Virus record (IMG/VR): IMGVR_UViG_3300031673_000434
Coordinates: 1-25,460 of that record
Strand: one strand, 5' to 3'
From: a virus
DNA length: 25,460 nucleotides
Positions within the stretch are counted from its first letter, which is position 1. Every line of letters starts with the position of its first letter. Below, piece by piece: positions 8,164-22,569 of the stretch. A model generated the notes under the pieces. That model ran no database searches. It was not told the origin of the DNA and worked only from the letters and a program-made list of their open reading frames with translations. A program made the translations under genes and the position numbers.

Positions 8164-9807
8164 GTGCACGCGCTGTTGAAAGAACTTAGTGAACGAGTAG
8201 CCACAGGACTCGTCCGACGGAGCATTACAACATGCTCCCGTTGGGCCGAGCAGTACCGTGTCATGGGTCAACCTTACCCCGGTCCTTGGAGTTTCAAGCA
8301 TCATCCGTGGTGCCGTGAGATGCACGATTGCCAAGTCGATATGGTTGGACAGAAGGGCGCGCAGCTAGGCTTCACCGAGACAGCGCTCAATAAGGTCTTC
8401 TTTGCTATTGACGTGCGAGCTGCCTCAGTATTGTATGTGTTACCAGCAAGTACGCCTGATGCCTCGGACTTTTCTACATCACGCTTCGATCCGGCCCTTG
8501 AGTCATCAGATCATCTTAGGAAACTTTTCTCTGATGTCAAAAACATCGGCCATAAGCGTGCTGGTCAGGCGAACCTATTCATCCGTGGTAGCAGGAGCAG
8601 GAGCCAACTTAAGTCGATACCTGTTGGTATCATTATTTTTGACGAAGTAGATGAAATGGTTCAGGATAACATCCCGCTTGCTTTCGAGCGCATGTCTGGA
8701 CAAGTAGAGAAACAGAAATTCCTCCTTTCAACGCCAACAATCGCAGGCTACGGCATCAATGCGTATTTCCAGAATAGTACACAGGGAGAGTTTTTCTTTA
8801 AGTGCCCCGCCTGCAGTAAGTGGACACAATGTGTCTTTCCAGAATCTATTGTCATTACAGCGGAAGACTATAATGATCCTAAGATCAAAGACACACATCT
8901 TATCTGCACAGACTGTAAGGCAATCTTACCCCATGCCGGTAAAGTAGATTGGCTCTCAACTGGTAAATGGGTCGATGCGAAGCCACAAATGCCAATGAAA
9001 GGCTTCCATGTTTCACAGTTGTATTCAATGACTACTACACCAGCTGAATTAGCCGTGTCTTTCCTTAAGTCATCCTCAAATGCGGCAGATGAGCAAGAGT
9101 TTTATAACTCAAAACTCGGTCTAACACACACTGTTAAGGGCGCAAAAGTCTCAGAAGAAGATATTATCGCTTGTATCGGTGAACATATGATGAAGGATAA
9201 GTCTACAGGCTTTATCACAATGGGCGTCGATATCGGTAAGTACCTTCACTGTGAAATCGTAGAGTGGAGAGTCCCTAAGCATAGACCTACACCAGATGTT
9301 AATCTTTTAGCCAAGGCCAAAGTTGTGCACGCCTGTAAAGTGAAAGAGTTTAATGACCTGCACGCATTAATGCGAAGGTTCCGCGTAAGATCATGTGTCG
9401 TTGACGCACAACCTGAGCGCCGTAAAGCGTTTGAATTCGCTGAAATGTATGCTGGTCGTGTGAAACTTTGTTTCTATGGCCGTGGTGTCAGAAGCCGGAC
9501 AATCAATGTGCACACAGACCGTGATCAAACAATCACGGTTGATAGGACAAACTGGCTCGATGTATCTTTGGGTCGATTCTTTCGTGGTAGTATCACATTA
9601 CCGAAAGATATTCCACTTGAGTACCGCAAACATGTACAGGCTTTGACACGCATATATAAAAAGGATGCTGATGGTAATCCTATTGGTATATATGTTAAGG
9701 CCGATAATGATGCGGATCACTATGCTCATGCTCGTAACTATTCTGAAATCGCGCTACTTCTCGGACTGTCTTTAGGTAAGTCACAAGATATAAGGAGCGC
9801 CCCGTGA
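8164..9807 (+). CDS. terL: Terminase large subunit, lambda gpA type
   Basis: A 547-residue packaging ATPase-nuclease. GTG at 8164 is preferred because TAAGG (8150-8154) lies 9 bases upstream; TTG at 8155 abuts that site. The deviant Walker A is K64-GAQLGFTE, aligning with lambda gpA KSARVGYSK, in which the lysine sits at the start of the loop. Walker B is IIIFDE with D160 and E161. Two CxxC pairs (C214/C217 and C248/C251) form the zinc knuckle common in this family. The RuvC-like nuclease acids are D356 (GVDIG), D414 (VVDAQ) and D518-H519 (DADHYAHA). This motor would fill the procapsid through the portal encoded next, with which it overlaps by GTGA. Apart from the missing classical GKT lysine, which is normal for this subgroup, every expected motif is present. 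Confidence 0.93.
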   Translation: MHALLKELSERVATGLVRRSITTCSRWAEQYRVMGQPYPGPWSFKHHPWCREMHDCQVDMVGQKGAQLGFTETALNKVFFAIDVRAASVLYVLPASTPDASDFSTSRFDPALESSDHLRKLFSDVKNIGHKRAGQANLFIRGSRSRSQLKSIPVGIIIFDEVDEMVQDNIPLAFERMSGQVEKQKFLLSTPTIAGYGINAYFQNSTQGEFFFKCPACSKWTQCVFPESIVITAEDYNDPKIKDTHLICTDCKAILPHAGKVDWLSTGKWVDAKPQMPMKGFHVSQLYSMTTTPAELAVSFLKSSSNAADEQEFYNSKLGLTHTVKGAKVSEEDIIACIGEHMMKDKSTGFITMGVDIGKYLHCEIVEWRVPKHRPTPDVNLLAKAKVVHACKVKEFNDLHALMRRFRVRSCVVDAQPERRKAFEFAEMYAGRVKLCFYGRGVRSRTINVHTDRDQTITVDRTNWLDVSLGRFFRGSITLPKDIPLEYRKHVQALTRIYKKDADGNPIGIYVKADNDADHYAHARNYSEIALLLGLSLGKSQDIRSAP

Positions 9808-11549
9808 ATCTAAATATAAAAGACATTACACATCCAGATTATAATAGGTTATTATTGGCTTGGCGTAAGTACCGTCTTGTTTTCAAGGGCGGAGCTGATT
9901 TTATTGAAGCATATCTTAAGTCATTCAACTCACGGGAAGACCCAATAGATTTTTATACACGTAAAGATTTATCATATGCACCTTCACACGCTAAAGCTGC
10001 TGTAATGGAAGTGAAGAATGCAATCTTTCAGCGTATGCCAGAGATTAAGCGGGCAAATGGTACTGTCTCATATAAAGAAGCCGTCGCTGGTCGCAATAGG
10101 GGTGTAGATCATAACGGTAATACAATGAACGGCTTTATAGGCCGTTTGGTGCTTCCGGACCTGCTCTCTATCGGACGTATAGGTGTCTATGTAGATCGTC
10201 AGCCATTGCCCGAGGATGCTTCTAGGCTTGATACACAGGCAAATACCCCTTATCTTTACACGTTTGCGGCAGAAGATATCCGTAGTTGGACAGTTGATCC
10301 AATAACACAGCAGCTTAAGACTTTATTGCTGCGTGATTCTGTTGATTATATTGATGAAGATACCGGATTAGTTAGTGATACTGTTCAACAGTTCCGCTTA
10401 CTACAAGCTGTAAATGGTACTGTAAAAATTACGATTTATGACGTTGAAGGCGTTGCGAAAGAAACTAGTATACTTAATATTCCAGCCATACCATTTGTAG
10501 TTTTTGAATTATCACATAGTCTTTTAATCGACATTGCAGATCATCAGATAGCCTTACTAAATCTAGCGTCATCTGACATGAATTATGCTATTAAAAGCAA
10601 CTTCCCGTTTTATGTTGAGCAATATGACCCTCAAGCAGAGATGTCATTCCTACGCACAGCTATTGATGAACAATCAGATATCGGTGAGGCGCTTGGTGAT
10701 GGCACAGCAGGTGAGGCAGCTGATGCCGCTATCGCTAAAGACCAGAGTATCAAAGTTGGTGTGACACAAGGTCGTCGTCACCCAATCGGTACAGACGCTC
10801 CTGGCTTTATTGCGCCACCGACAGCCCCGCTTCTCGCTAGTATGGAGAAACAGGAGCAGATTAAGGCTGAAATACTCCAGCTAATCAACTTAGCAGTTAC
10901 GACTCTCAAGCCTTCACGCGCATCAGCAGAGAGTAAGCGTGAAGATGCTAAGGGTCTTGAGGCTGGTCTATCATATGTTGGCTTAGAACTTGAGTATGGC
11001 GAACGACAGATTCAAGTAATTTGGGCAATGTATGAAGATTCCCAAATCGATCCGTCAGTTACTTACCCTCAGAACTATAGTCTGCGTACTGACGAATCAC
11101 GGCGGCAAGAAGCTAAAGAACTTTTAGAGTTCATGCCACAAATGCCCTCAAAAGATGCGCAAAAAGAGTTGGCTAAAGAGGTCGCAGAAATTTTATTAGG
11201 TCATAGAGTATCAGATCAGGAACTCCAGAAGGTTCGTAACCAAATTGACAATGCAGAAGTTATCGTTATTGACCCTAAAGTTATCTCAATGGACCTTGAA
11301 AATGGGTTAGTTAGCACGAAGACTGCCAGTGAGGCGCGTCTGTACCCCAAGGGTGATGTTAAGATCGCACAGAAGGAACATGCGGAACGGGCCGCTGCAA
11401 TTGTGGCCGCACAAAAGGGTGACGCTGCACGGGGATCAGAGGATACAGACCCCGACCCAAAGAAGTCAGCAACCATCGAGAAAGCAGCTTCACGTAATAC
11501 TGATAAAGATGTAATAGTCAAGGATAAGACACGCGGAGAGGAACGATAA
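9804..11549 (+). CDS. Portal protein
   Basis: A 581-residue protein starting at GTG 9804, with AAGGAG (9792-9797) 6 bases upstream and a 4-base overlap with terL. The N-terminal half carries a portal-like signature: HPDYNRLLLAWRKYR, a long helical lead-in, then LPDLLSIGRIGVYVDRQP, where portal subunits of the DUF4055-like group have a conserved G-R-x-G-x-x-V-D. The C-terminal third is helical, with KQEQIKAEILQLINLAV and ASAESKREDAKGLEAGL, matching the stem/crown helices, and ends in a Lys/Asp-rich tail. Twelve copies would form the DNA channel at one capsid vertex, contacting the terminase outside and the connector encoded next. Assignment rests on length, position and these motifs; the exact family is less sure than the role. 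Confidence 0.88.
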   Translation: MNLNIKDITHPDYNRLLLAWRKYRLVFKGGADFIEAYLKSFNSREDPIDFYTRKDLSYAPSHAKAAVMEVKNAIFQRMPEIKRANGTVSYKEAVAGRNRGVDHNGNTMNGFIGRLVLPDLLSIGRIGVYVDRQPLPEDASRLDTQANTPYLYTFAAEDIRSWTVDPITQQLKTLLLRDSVDYIDEDTGLVSDTVQQFRLLQAVNGTVKITIYDVEGVAKETSILNIPAIPFVVFELSHSLLIDIADHQIALLNLASSDMNYAIKSNFPFYVEQYDPQAEMSFLRTAIDEQSDIGEALGDGTAGEAADAAIAKDQSIKVGVTQGRRHPIGTDAPGFIAPPTAPLLASMEKQEQIKAEILQLINLAVTTLKPSRASAESKREDAKGLEAGLSYVGLELEYGERQIQVIWAMYEDSQIDPSVTYPQNYSLRTDESRRQEAKELLEFMPQMPSKDAQKELAKEVAEILLGHRVSDQELQKVRNQIDNAEVIVIDPKVISMDLENGLVSTKTASEARLYPKGDVKIAQKEHAERAAAIVAAQKGDAARGSEDTDPDPKKSATIEKAASRNTDKDVIVKDKTRGEER

Positions 11550-12000: not shown

Positions 12001-12846
12001 ATGTTACTGAGCGCTAAGATTGTTAAGATTGTTAAGTATTGGAAGCCGGTATACGACGATGCGTCCGAAGCAGCAGCAGTTGCGGCCGCAGCAGCCGCCG
12101 AAGAAGCAGCAGCTGCTGCTGAAAAGGCTGCCGCCGAAAAGGCCGCTAAGGCCAAAGGTAGTGAGGGTAAGACATTTACACAGGATGAGCTTAATGCCAT
12201 ACTTGCAAAAGACCGCCGCGAGCATAAAGAGAAAAATAGTTCTCTCTTAGATGAGATCGAGGCTCTAAAAGCCAAGCAGAATCTCACCAATGAGGAGCGA
12301 GAGAATCTTGAAGCAAAGGTAAAAGAATTACGTCAGACAAATATGACTGCCGAACAGCTTAAGAAAGAACAGGAAGAGAAGCTTCGCACCGATTATGAAG
12401 GAAAGTTAACAGCCGCACTCCGTGAGAAGGAAGACTGGAAGAAGCTTTTCACAACGACTGAGATTCAGCGATCTATTGTAGATGCCGCCGCGGCACACGA
12501 AGCGTATGTCCCCGCGCAGGTTGTGGCGATATTAGGACCGACTACACGCCTTTCGGAAGCTCTTGATGATGAGGGTAAGCCGACTGGCAAGTACACTCCG
12601 TTGGTATCCTTACAGGATGTCAAGGAGGGCAAGCCGATTACTCTTGAACTGACTCCAGAAGATGCAGTCAAGAGGATGTCTGAGATGGATCAATTCCTGA
12701 ATCTTTTCAAAGGAAAGGGTGCAGGAGGTATTGGTGGTCAGAATCGTGGTGGTAGCGGCAAAGGTGGCAAACTGACTCAAGCCGAAGCTGCTTCCAAAGG
12801 ACCGGAATTCTATCGGAAATGGGTGAAGGAGAATCCAGATGCATAG
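12001..12846 (+). CDS. Capsid scaffolding protein
   Basis: A 281-residue protein. The ATG at 12001 has AGGAGG (11991-11996) 4 bases upstream, overlapping the previous stop. An Ala/Glu/Lys-rich low-complexity segment (residues about 20-56) leads to KTFTQDELNAILAKDRREHK, a typical phage scaffold start, then a long coiled coil to about 150. A more globular part follows (AAAHEAYVPAQVVAILGP), then a Gly-rich flexible stretch (GAGGIGGQNRGGSG) and a basic C-terminal helix ending WVKENPDA. P22-type coat proteins require an internal scaffold that leaves the procapsid, with a C-terminal helix that binds coat. Residues 12-18 read KYWKPVY, which recurs at the start of the coat protein. The gene overlaps the coat start by 8 bases. 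No protease domain is visible. Confidence 0.85.
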   Translation: MLLSAKIVKIVKYWKPVYDDASEAAAVAAAAAAEEAAAAAEKAAAEKAAKAKGSEGKTFTQDELNAILAKDRREHKEKNSSLLDEIEALKAKQNLTNEERENLEAKVKELRQTNMTAEQLKKEQEEKLRTDYEGKLTAALREKEDWKKLFTTTEIQRSIVDAAAAHEAYVPAQVVAILGPTTRLSEALDDEGKPTGKYTPLVSLQDVKEGKPITLELTPEDAVKRMSEMDQFLNLFKGKGAGGIGGQNRGGSGKGGKLTQAEAASKGPEFYRKWVKENPDA

Positions 12847-14230
12847 ACTTATCAAGAAGTATTGGAAACCCGTATACGCAAACGATAACTCCGCGCTAAT
12901 CCCTGAGTTATGGGCGCAGGAGGCTCTTCGTGTTCTTGATGCTAATCTCGTTGCTGCAAATCTTGTCTATCGTGATTTTGATGAAAAGGTTGCGGCCTTT
13001 GGTGATACGGTCAATGCCCATAGGCCGGCAAGTTTTACCATGAAGCGCAAGGTTGATACTGATGCTGTAACCGTGCAGGACGCAACGTCCACAAACGTGG
13101 CCGTTTTACTCGATCAGCACCTTCACACCTCTTTCCTGATTCGTGACGGGGAAGAGAGCAAGAGCTTCAAGTCGCTTCGTGATATGTACCTCACTCGTGC
13201 TGTTATGTCGCTCGCTCAGGGTATTGACCAGATCGTGCTTCTGCAGGTCTATGAGTTCCTTGCCAACTTGCAGGGTAAGATTGGCACTGCGCTTACAGCA
13301 GCGTCACTTATTGCCGTTCGTGAGAAGTTCAACGATCTTAATGCCCCGTTGGATGGCCGAAATCTTCTTCTTACGTCTTCGCAGGAAGCGGACCTACTTG
13401 CTGTTGACAGCCTAGTAGCTGCCGATAAGGTTGGCGATGAAGGTTCGGCTCTACGTGCTGGATCACTTGGTACCAAGTACGGTATCAATATGTTCATGTC
13501 ACAGAACGCTCCGAGCGTTGCAGCTGGCAGCACAGTCACAACCGACATGGCCATCAACCTCGGTGCTGGCTATGCTATTGGTAGCACGGTACTAGTCGTT
13601 GACGGCGGAAACACCACGGCTGTCGCTGGTGAGTGGTGCACAATTGCTGGTGACAACACTCCTCAGCTTATCACTGCTGTTACCGGTGGTTCTATAGTTA
13701 CTGGAATCACGATTTCACCGGGCCTCCGCTCGGCAGTCGTAGATGATGCAGTTGTGACTGTTTACAATTCAGGTGCCATCAACGAAGCTGCGACACCCGG
13801 ATACGCATCTGGTTGGAGTAAGGACATCGTAATCGATGGCTTTACAGTTGCGCCGAAGACCGGCCAACTTATAACAACTGGTGTTGCTGGCACATATAAG
13901 TATGGTGCCATGCCCACACCTACGACTGTTCTTATGCTTCTCAACCGTGCATTGGATGCGGCCCTTTCCAATGACGAAGTTGTTGGTGTTGGTCCTATGG
14001 GTCAGTATGGTCTGGCACTGCACAGGGATGCAATTGCGCTCGTTACACGGCCTCTTGCTACACCTATGCAGGGAACTGGTGCGCAGTCAGCCGTTATTAA
14101 CTTTAACGGTCTTTCGATTCGCGTCACGATCACATACGAAGGTCGCAATCAGGGCCACCTTGTAACTGTTGACCTTCTTTGTGGGGTCAAGACTCTCAAT
14201 AGTTCACTCGGTGTGCCGCTTGTATCGTAA
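12839..14230 (+). CDS. Major capsid protein, P22 coat-type HK97 fold
   Basis: A 463-residue coat protein. The ATG at 12839 has GAAGGAG about 7 bases upstream, inside the scaffold gene. After an N-terminal extension containing KYWKPVY (residues 7-13), the sequence follows P22-like coat patterns: ALIPELWAQEALRVLDANLV, then AFGDTVNAHRP, and later APLDGRNLLLTSSQEADLL, where this family has a conserved PxDGR turn. Residues about 225-320 are Gly/Val/Thr-rich beta sequence (GSTVTTDMAINLGAGYAIGS, then VAGEWCTIAGD), consistent with the inserted domain of P22-type coats. The C-terminal part (ALHRDAIALVTRPLATP; SIRVTITYE) completes the fold. Absence of a prohead protease agrees with an uncleaved coat. 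A G-rich hairpin follows, probably making this the end of an abundant transcript. Confidence 0.88.
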   Translation: MHRLIKKYWKPVYANDNSALIPELWAQEALRVLDANLVAANLVYRDFDEKVAAFGDTVNAHRPASFTMKRKVDTDAVTVQDATSTNVAVLLDQHLHTSFLIRDGEESKSFKSLRDMYLTRAVMSLAQGIDQIVLLQVYEFLANLQGKIGTALTAASLIAVREKFNDLNAPLDGRNLLLTSSQEADLLAVDSLVAADKVGDEGSALRAGSLGTKYGINMFMSQNAPSVAAGSTVTTDMAINLGAGYAIGSTVLVVDGGNTTAVAGEWCTIAGDNTPQLITAVTGGSIVTGITISPGLRSAVVDDAVVTVYNSGAINEAATPGYASGWSKDIVIDGFTVAPKTGQLITTGVAGTYKYGAMPTPTTVLMLLNRALDAALSNDEVVGVGPMGQYGLALHRDAIALVTRPLATPMQGTGAQSAVINFNGLSIRVTITYEGRNQGHLVTVDLLCGVKTLNSSLGVPLVS

Positions 14231-15481: not shown

Positions 15482-16030
15482 ATGAGACTTACTGGTAAGA
15501 GAGGATCGGTATGGGTTCCTGTCTATGCCCAAATCGATCTCAAGAAAGCTACCATCTCCATCAAAGATGGTGGTGTCGGATCAGCACAGAACTCACTCGA
15601 TATCACAATAGGTGAAGGCAACCTAACCTATACAGAGCGAAAGAATATCGAGTACACGTTGGACCGTGGGAATCTTGATGAAGTCCGTGAGGGCGATCAG
15701 GTTCCTGTGGACGTTTCTCTGGATGCCGTTTGGGAGTATATTTCTGGTGGCTCAGCTTCTGGTGCGACACCCACTATTGAAGATGCTCTCAAGAATACCG
15801 GTCCGGCAGCGGGTTGGATTTCGACAGACTCTGATGCATGTCGGCCTTTCGCTGTAGACCTTGTGATTACATACTTACCTACACCTTCAACCTGCGGTGA
15901 TCAGGAAATAATCACACTGTCGGATTATCGGTATGAAGAGTTGGCGCACGACCTCCGTGCGGGTACAATCGCAACGAGTGGTCGTTGTAATGTTGTAGAA
16001 GCAACTGCCGTTAGAACTGCACAGGTATAG
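15482..16030 (+). CDS. Major tail tube protein
   Basis: A 182-residue beta-rich protein; ATG at 15482 has a perfect AGGAGG (15471-15476) 5 bases upstream, consistent with heavy expression. The pattern KRGSVWVPVYAQIDLKKATI, GEGNLTYTERKNIEYTLDRG and REGDQVPVDVSLDAVWEYI fits tail tube proteins, where a beta sandwich carries a long hairpin loop that builds the tube lumen. Three of four cysteines lie in the second half. It precedes the chaperone pair and the tape measure, the invariant order in long-tailed phages; with no sheath gene beside it the tail is non-contractile. Function is inferred from size, strand pattern and order rather than from a signature motif. Confidence 0.78.
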   Translation: MRLTGKRGSVWVPVYAQIDLKKATISIKDGGVGSAQNSLDITIGEGNLTYTERKNIEYTLDRGNLDEVREGDQVPVDVSLDAVWEYISGGSASGATPTIEDALKNTGPAAGWISTDSDACRPFAVDLVITYLPTPSTCGDQEIITLSDYRYEELAHDLRAGTIATSGRCNVVEATAVRTAQV

Positions 16031-21333: not shown

Positions 21334-21818
21334 AATTTGAAGGACGTTTCAAAGTAGTACATAAGGATAAGACTGGCCAGATTAAGGGAGTCTACTACCT
21401 TAAGAATGGTGTCACAAACGTAGGTAAGGATCGTATTCTTGCCACGATGTTTAATGGTACGGCGCTTTCTTCGCCGTGGTATATCGGTCTTATTGATAAT
21501 GCTGGTTTTGTTGGCCTATCGGCTGCTGATACAATAGCACTCCGTGCTGGTTGGACCGAGTTCGTAAATTATGATGGGGATGTTAGGCAGACATGGGATG
21601 AAGCGGCTGTTTCTGGCCAAGAAATTGTAACAACTACACCAGCTACATTCACAATATCCAGTGATGGTTCAGAGATTATCGGGCTTTTCATTGTTGATGA
21701 CGATACAAAGGGTGGTACTGTAACTGGTACACTCTGGTCAACCGGTCTCTTTGACGCGGTTAAAACACTTGATGATGATGACACTTTGGATGTTCAATAT
21801 GAAATATCGGTGAGCTAA
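21330..21818 (+). CDS. Small conserved phage tail protein
   Basis: A 162-residue protein translationally coupled to the tape measure by an ATGA overlap; no strong Shine-Dalgarno is seen. The sequence VTNVGKDRILATMFNGTALS, WYIGLIDNAGFVGLSAADTI and AGWTEFVNYDGDVRQTWDEA belongs to a pattern I recall from many phage tail regions (YIGLIDN-x-GF ... AGWTEF), whose role is not established. The second half is beta-rich and ends in acidic DDDDTLDVQYEISVS. Its place directly after the tape measure suggests a component of the distal tail or tail tip. No enzymatic motif is visible. Confidence 0.68.
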   Translation: MKFEGRFKVVHKDKTGQIKGVYYLKNGVTNVGKDRILATMFNGTALSSPWYIGLIDNAGFVGLSAADTIALRAGWTEFVNYDGDVRQTWDEAAVSGQEIVTTTPATFTISSDGSEIIGLFIVDDDTKGGTVTGTLWSTGLFDAVKTLDDDDTLDVQYEISVS

Positions 21819-22189
21819 TGAGCTTCCAAATATATTTAACTTCTCCGTCAGATGGTATAGTATTACCTAATCCTGAGTTAGGCGATGCGCGCCGTTTGGA
21901 TACACAAGTACTTAATCGTGAGACACGTGGTGGCGAATATAAGTCTTTTAAAGATTCTGATTGGCCCGTTAAAGAAATACATGTCTATGAATGGCCGCTT
22001 TTGGATAATACTGAACGCGATAATCTTGAAGCGTTCTTCGTAGCAAATGCTGGTGAAGCAGTGCATATTATTGACCATAATTCTGATGAGTGGGATGGTG
22101 TATTTTTAACGGACGTTCTTGATATTAGAGTCAGTAAAGACGATTGTACATATGCCACTAGCCTAGAGTTTTTGGGGGTAAAAGCATGA
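21818..22189 (+). CDS. Distal tail protein A (paralogue of the next gene)
   Basis: A 123-residue protein starting in a TAATG overlap with the previous gene. Strands around LTSPSDGIVLPNPELGDARR and RETRGGEYKSFKDSDWPVKE lead to a helix (NTERDNLEAFFVANAGEAVH) and a closing strand DCTYATSLEFLGVKA. The order 'strand, GDxxR, strand, helix with AG-x-x-V/I, D-x-x-x-x-W-x-G, strand ending EF-x-G-x-K' is repeated in the next gene, so both share one fold. The layout resembles tail-tube-like or distal tail proteins that ring the tip. The next start overlaps by ATGA. Confidence 0.65.
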   Translation: MSFQIYLTSPSDGIVLPNPELGDARRLDTQVLNRETRGGEYKSFKDSDWPVKEIHVYEWPLLDNTERDNLEAFFVANAGEAVHIIDHNSDEWDGVFLTDVLDIRVSKDDCTYATSLEFLGVKA

Positions 22190-22569
22190 TAACTTTTGCT
22201 CATCCATATGCGGCTCCAACACTTAGCGTCATACTAAGAGATCCTGAGTATGGCGATTCGACGTTGGTTAATGTTAGAACACAAGTGCGGCAATCTATGT
22301 CAGGAGAGATTCACTCTTTCCGACGGACTTCTGCTACACGTGATTTGTTACTGACATTTTCTGAGATATCTAAGCCAAAGGTACAGGAGTTAATAGACTT
22401 TTTGACAACTGCGGCTGGCGATGAGATCAAATATACTGATTATGAAGCAGTAGTATGGCGTGGTTGGTTAATAACTAATCCGGCAGAATTTATAACCAAC
22501 AGCAAGAAAGATGGTACTTGTATTGAAGTTTCAACCATAACGCTTGAGTTCAGAGGGAGCAAAGTATGA
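22186..22569 (+). CDS. Distal tail protein B (paralogue of the preceding gene)
   Basis: A 127-residue protein starting in an ATGA overlap with gene A and itself overlapping the hub gene by ATGA. It aligns end to end with A: LRDPEYGDS against LPNPELGDA, GEIHSFRRTSATRD against GEYKSFKDSDWPVK, the helix KPKVQELIDFLTTAAGDEIK against TERDNLEAFFVANAGEAVH, VVWRGWLITNP against DEWDGVFLTDV, and LEFRGSKV against LEFLGVKA. Identity is low but the motif order is the same. It is probably a second ring protein of the distal tail, or a hetero-oligomer partner of A. No separate Shine-Dalgarno is evident, so stoichiometric coupling is plausible. Confidence 0.65.
   Translation: MITFAHPYAAPTLSVILRDPEYGDSTLVNVRTQVRQSMSGEIHSFRRTSATRDLLLTFSEISKPKVQELIDFLTTAAGDEIKYTDYEAVVWRGWLITNPAEFITNSKKDGTCIEVSTITLEFRGSKV

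Follow-up and report, generated by a model that had tools for sequence, protein, structure and literature searches.

The coat protein and the scaffold of Staphylococcus phage 80alpha lose 13-14 residues through cleavage at F↓A by Prp, a protease of the host (PMC5744158). This cleavage site is shared with ribosomal protein L27 of Firmicutes, the phage substrates being the scaffold gp46 and the coat gp47, and the same motif is found on the major tail protein of another phage (PMC5744158, PMC9405229). Cleavage of the 80alpha scaffold leader is dispensable but the leader itself is essential, and the authors suggested that a common chaperone is involved (PMC5744158). Phage prohead proteases, for example gp245 of SPN3US, also trim both scaffold and coat (PMC10052503).

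The locus described here bears on a puzzle that includes 80alpha, namely why a common N-terminal leader is carried by head and tail proteins. Similarly to the Prp system, one short N-terminal leader is present on an unrelated scaffold and coat (and, in the Prp case, on a major tail protein of another phage), an aromatic residue precedes the junction, Ala often follows it, and leaderless homologues begin at the junction. Unlike the Prp leaders, those found here do not follow NLQ[FL]F (the window has KYWKPVY↓A and none of those listed has the motif), they change in lockstep between genomes, the scaffold junction is usually followed by D/E, and some portals carry the leader too. As with prohead proteases, one protease would serve several head proteins, but here the tail tube bears a leader as well, and leaders are restricted to N-termini.

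A peptide shared by scaffold, coat and tail tube

The window, the whole stretch of DNA analysed, is a virus record of 25,460 bases with a siphophage-type structural cluster made of terminase, portal, adaptor, scaffold, P22-like coat, neck genes, tail tube and tape measure (Table 1). The initial annotation had reported the peptide KYWKPVY at the start of two otherwise unrelated proteins, and both parts of this claim were confirmed. The peptide is exactly shared by scaffold residues 12-18 and coat residues 7-13, and the underlying DNA (12034-12055 and 12857-12878) is equal at 20/22 bases. The scaffold matched PHROG_206, whereas the coat matched PHROG_283 and the Pfam P22 coat family, with both coat matches extending over the domain (E-values in Table 1). 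The scaffold ATG is preceded by AGGAGG.

Scaffold and coat have one copy of KYWKPVY each, and the remainder of the window has none. The chance expectation of a seven-residue identical run between two 30-residue N-termini of such composition is ~6e-6; together with the permutations of the co-variation analysis below, this rules out a chance origin of the sharing. A third, weaker copy that the initial annotation had missed was found in the gene at 15482, which starts with MRLTGKRGSVWVPVY↓AQIDLKK. The product of this gene had no match in PHROG. Its AlphaFold model (mean pLDDT 84.7) gave a best Foldseek match to a virus tail chain (E 1.7e-4), followed by many tube proteins at a TM-score of ~0.5, and we assign it as a probable tail-tube protein from this fold similarity at moderate TM-score.

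Table 1. Genes and leaders of the window, with the two prophage loci discussed in the text (↓, putative junction).
Feature	Position	Strand	Remarks
Portal gene, VNLNIKDITHPDY	9804..11549	+	Leaderless in the window phage; PHROG_145, E 1e-31
Scaffold gene, 281 aa, MLLSAKIVKIVKYWKPVYDD	12001..12846	+	PHROG_206 head scaffolding protein, E 4e-11
Scaffold leader, MLLSAKIVKIVKYWKPVY	12001..12054	+	Match to coat leader; Y18↓D19
Major coat gene, P22-like, 463 aa, MHRLIKKYWKPVYANDN	12839..14230	+	PF11651, E 1e-27; PHROG_283, E 5e-62
Coat leader, MHRLIKKYWKPVY	12839..12877	+	Y13↓A14; leaderless relatives start M↓AND.. or M↓ANS.. here
Predicted tail-tube gene, 182 aa	15482..16030	+	AlphaFold model and Foldseek matches to tail-tube proteins
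Tail-tube leader, MRLTGKRGSVWVPVY	15482..15526	+	Third-best N-terminal match in the window; Y15↓A16
Bacillota prophage loci with Prp-type scaffold leaders	L239, L243	minus (each locus)	

The scaffold linker past the leader (12055-12140) is repeat-rich, with Ala/Glu in the window and Gly/Asp/Pro in relatives. Its start is mostly acidic even though the sequence is not conserved.

Leaders alike within genomes and different between them

Relatives were collected by profile scans of viral contigs, which returned several hundred coat relatives, at most 80 of which were read per scan. These contigs are metagenomic and often partial, and start codons were picked by Shine-Dalgarno score. A first genome scan with the coat as a query returned no relatives, scaffold and portal had no match among cultured phages, and the exact DNA pattern for KYWKPVY gave 10 matches in all viral contigs, none of them at a coat or scaffold N-terminus.

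Nearly all the relatives read displayed a matching peptide at both N-termini, the scaffold leader resembling the coat leader of its own genome and differing from those of other genomes. In the two contigs closest to the window, whose coats are 71% identical to its own, KFFKPVY was found in scaffold and coat alike, indicating that the peptide had changed in both. More distant pairs include KIWTPVF/KIWLPVF (L063), PVMACY/PTLACY (L088), IQLTYC/IQLTYC (L074), ADARPIAH/ADARPIAH (L225), GWSTVG/GWCSVG (L177) and YYSLICF/YYSLICF (L342).

A set of 92 genomes, from which redundancy by coat similarity had been removed, was used to quantify co-variation; 89 of them had a leader. The mean local score of the coat leader against the scaffold N-terminus of the same genome was 34.2 for these 89, as compared to 16.7 for permuted pairs (sd 0.66, maximum 19.3); 0/20,000 permutations reached the observed value. 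The own scaffold also outscored that of the nearest relative 62:26 (p 2.9e-8), and this nearest-neighbour test, which is the sole control for relatedness in the analysis, rules out shared ancestry alone. Controls in an earlier set of 79 genomes gave no signal, with scores of 14.9 for shuffled leaders, 12.7 for the scaffold interior and 12.0 for the coat body; the value for shuffled leaders, compared with 34.5 for the real ones, rules out amino-acid composition as the cause. Over the last seven leader residues, coat and scaffold were 56% identical within a genome and 30% between genomes. Leaders drift fast: leader identity between orthologous coats was 19% where the bodies are 50-60% identical, and 74% where they are 80-90% identical. 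The leader is thus neither a product of chance nor special to the window phage.

The initial annotation had also suggested a duplicated translation-control element. This was not supported when codon and peptide conservation were compared. The same codon was used at 44.4% of 453 identical leader residues, as against 44.1% predicted from genome codon usage (z 0.14), and the 30 bases upstream were no more alike within a genome (similarity 0.294) than between genomes (0.290). Because codons are shared only at the predicted rate and upstream bases are not shared, selection must act on the peptide, and RNA or DNA copying is ruled out as the general cause. The high DNA match of the repeat in the window is atypical among genomes.

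When the N-termini of all ORFs of a contig were compared to the leader, the best matches were scaffold and coat and, in many contigs, the homologue of the 15482 gene. A tail-tube copy was present in 46/69 leader-bearing genomes, including that of the window, and the tube was leaderless in the other 23. Coat-tube and tube-scaffold leaders also co-vary (n=46). For example, L059 has RFVPSLFTPAH↓AN in the coat and MRFVPSLFTPAH↓ARIDMKD in the tube, and L223 has MQFNGLMAPIRVPVF↓AND and MQFNVLMAPIRVPVF↓AQIDLK, respectively. Portals carrying a copy were found in L037, L053, L057, L063, L228 and G012. In this large group of uncultured phages, the leader, ~8-25 residues long and with KYWKPVY as its core in the window, is therefore on scaffold and coat nearly always, on the tail tube often and on the portal sometimes.

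Three members of the group (L083, its close relative L165, and L182) had no leader on coat, scaffold or tube, showing an all-or-none pattern across the three proteins. Their coats start with MANDISAF, MANDLSMF and MANSLTAY, and their tubes with MAIVELK and MAKIDFK. Distant leaderless coats start with MANT or MAND, and leaderless tubes also with M↓AQIDLK or MAKIDLK. Leaderless homologues thus begin right at the leader/body junction (M↓AN.., M↓A.ID..), and the leader end therefore corresponds to the position of their initiator Met, before Ala. In leader-bearing coats, Y or F precedes the junction in 58/75 and A follows it in 47/75; in tubes, the corresponding figures are 34/43 (F or Y) and 32/43. 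The residue before the junction is at times G, H or C, and the scaffold mostly has D/E after it, which does not readily fit a single fixed specificity. In the models, leader residues are poorly ordered and fall outside the folded domains, with pLDDT <50 for coat residues 1-16. Collectively, these data establish the sharing of a genome-specific leader, its co-variation at the peptide level, its all-or-none pattern and a junction located at the ancestral N-terminus.

A probable removable tag and its alternatives

Since the leader end coincides with the start of leaderless proteins, a removable presequence is indicated rather than a docking element, and, given the architecture shared with 80alpha, processing by a common protease is the reading we favour. 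We consider it somewhat probable that the leader is a removable tag, putatively cut from the virion proteins by one shared protease. Cleavage, the enzyme, its timing and the purpose of the leader are what we infer from this comparison. A single protease of host or phage origin would recognise the leader on every carrier protein and cut at a junction made of Y or F followed by A, D or E, giving mature N-termini AND.. for the coat and AQIDLK.. for the tube. Until processing, the leader would probably aid folding, or delay and coordinate assembly. We propose that the leaders change together because a single active site has to accommodate every substrate. Among the matches listed when 45 proteins of contig G012 were compared to Pfam and PHROG, none was recognised as a prohead protease.

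Fast leader drift, with scaffold, coat and tube following one another, amounts to a natural experiment repeated many times. Leaders in lockstep make a common partner, protease or chaperone, searchable, and many matched and mismatched leader sets are available for swap tests. A leader match also provides a simple rule by which virion genes can be assigned to the same phage and start codons corrected.

The initial annotation had proposed a docking or delivery tag for procapsid assembly. The idea of a shared functional tag stood, as the peptide is kept on both proteins, changes in step and is absent from both together; docking restricted to the procapsid became less likely, given the leader on the tail tube and on some portals. 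For the same reason, the tail tube not being a procapsid part, mimicry between scaffold and coat at one site, also put forward in that annotation, is less likely. A broader version, where the leader is retained and a shared partner (a pocket of the coat, a site of assembly, or a chaperone from phage or host) gathers the tagged proteins, is in our view unlikely. It would agree with the 80alpha scaffold leader being essential when its cleavage is not, with the common chaperone suggested for that phage (PMC5744158), and with co-variation of the kind expected from ligands of one pocket. An exact fit to the ancestral N-terminus, however, is not needed for docking, and the tail tube is tagged besides the procapsid proteins.

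We judge it quite improbable that the enzyme is host Prp and that the leader copies the host L27 extension, as in Staphylococcus phages. The architecture is that of 80alpha, but NLQ[FL]F is absent from the leaders found here. When L27 from 84,980 species was scanned for [VIM]YA before the body, only NLQMYA (Lachnospiraceae) and one match that was not L27 were returned; no case of host L27 mimicry with VYA was therefore found. Prp was not detected in 20 contigs of relatives, and Prp-bearing control genomes responded in the same search. Given the non-Prp motif, the acidic scaffold residue and an L27 scan yielding NLQMYA alone, the system is best described as working in a Prp-like manner; we regard it as Prp-like in architecture and do not assign it to the Prp group. 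Among 398 Bacillota genomes searched for prophages, 9 had distant P22-like coats, and those that could be read were leaderless. In two such prophages, the scaffold leader is of the Prp type (RINLQHF↓S and KLNLQLH↓A) and the coat has none (Table 1). The Prp motif in distant prophages of Prp hosts speaks for the reading with host Prp and agrees with a leader that follows the enzyme at hand. In Lachnospiraceae genomes (L026-L028, L030-L033), the L27 extension ends in NLQMY↓A, with Tyr preceding the cleavage site where Phe/Leu is usual.

A code of self-identity, holding together the virion proteins of a given phage when cells are co-infected, would account for leaders that are private to a genome, drift fast and change in lockstep. 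We consider it very improbable: close relatives often have nearly the same leader (the 74% identity given above), and we know of no reader of such a code. The least credible explanation, a recent DNA duplication, gene conversion or shared translation-start element, finds some agreement in the 20/22 matching bases of the window and in a similar case in its nearest relative, but is contradicted as a general cause by the codon and upstream comparisons and may contribute in the window alone.

A candidate peptidase and other features of the window

If the leader is a removable tag cut by a shared protease, a phage-encoded enzyme is one candidate. A protein family of ~155 residues was found in 22 contigs carrying this coat family. 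Its alignment (A9) displays Cys in 22/22 members, His in 22/22 and Asp in 21/22, in the order Q-x5-C .. H .. D with the Gln ~6 residues before the Cys, and on these residues it looks like a C39/papain-type cysteine peptidase. The C39-type peptidases of bacteriocin export are papain-like cysteine peptidases removing an N-terminal leader that ends in double glycine. The candidate family shares the Q-C-H-D order with them; unlike theirs, the leaders described here have no double glycine end, and what ties the candidate to the leader is circumstantial.

The family was absent from the one long leaderless contig, G008 (83 kb), and was missing in the leader-bearing G010 and G002, both of which may be incomplete. 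Searching every viral contig for the family gave 21 contigs, and all those of at least 48 kb also encode this coat family. Six newly found contigs bearing the candidate had leaders on both scaffold and coat, five with a clear match and one (L341) with a weak one. The candidate had no Pfam match at E <1 (one member scanned), no match in the PDB or among cultured phages, and no clear match in PHROG (best E 0.011). Candidate divergence did not follow leader divergence across 20 genomes once the coat body was controlled for (r -0.02, p 0.57). As only one leaderless lineage is informative, the evidence for this peptidase as the leader-cutting enzyme is circumstantial, and the gene may be a mere core gene of the phage group. 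A bolder reading, in our view less likely than not, is that the phage group as a whole has a leader-peptide system of its own, in which a dedicated peptidase, possibly the C39-like family of the larger contigs, reads the genome-private leader on scaffold, coat, tube and sometimes portal, and so gates maturation. If true, one enzyme with a fast-drifting, phage-specific code would gate the maturation of several self-assembling proteins. Members of the candidate family include L315 (contig G012), L316, L319-L322 and others, and are apparently confined to this phage group.

Repeated sequences were also observed elsewhere in the window. The ORFs at 134-544 and 555-1025 encode near-identical proteins (DGCRDA..FGVSDVQA..HNLLTSIRDNL..), an apparent tandem gene duplication. 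The ORF at 1334-1650 is made of TLYPIPYTLYPICWRQD and MLASGY/MLASAY repeats and is probably a DNA tandem repeat, not a gene. Within 21818-22569, the adjacent tail genes starting at 21818 and 22186 belong to one protein family and are likely to have arisen by duplication.
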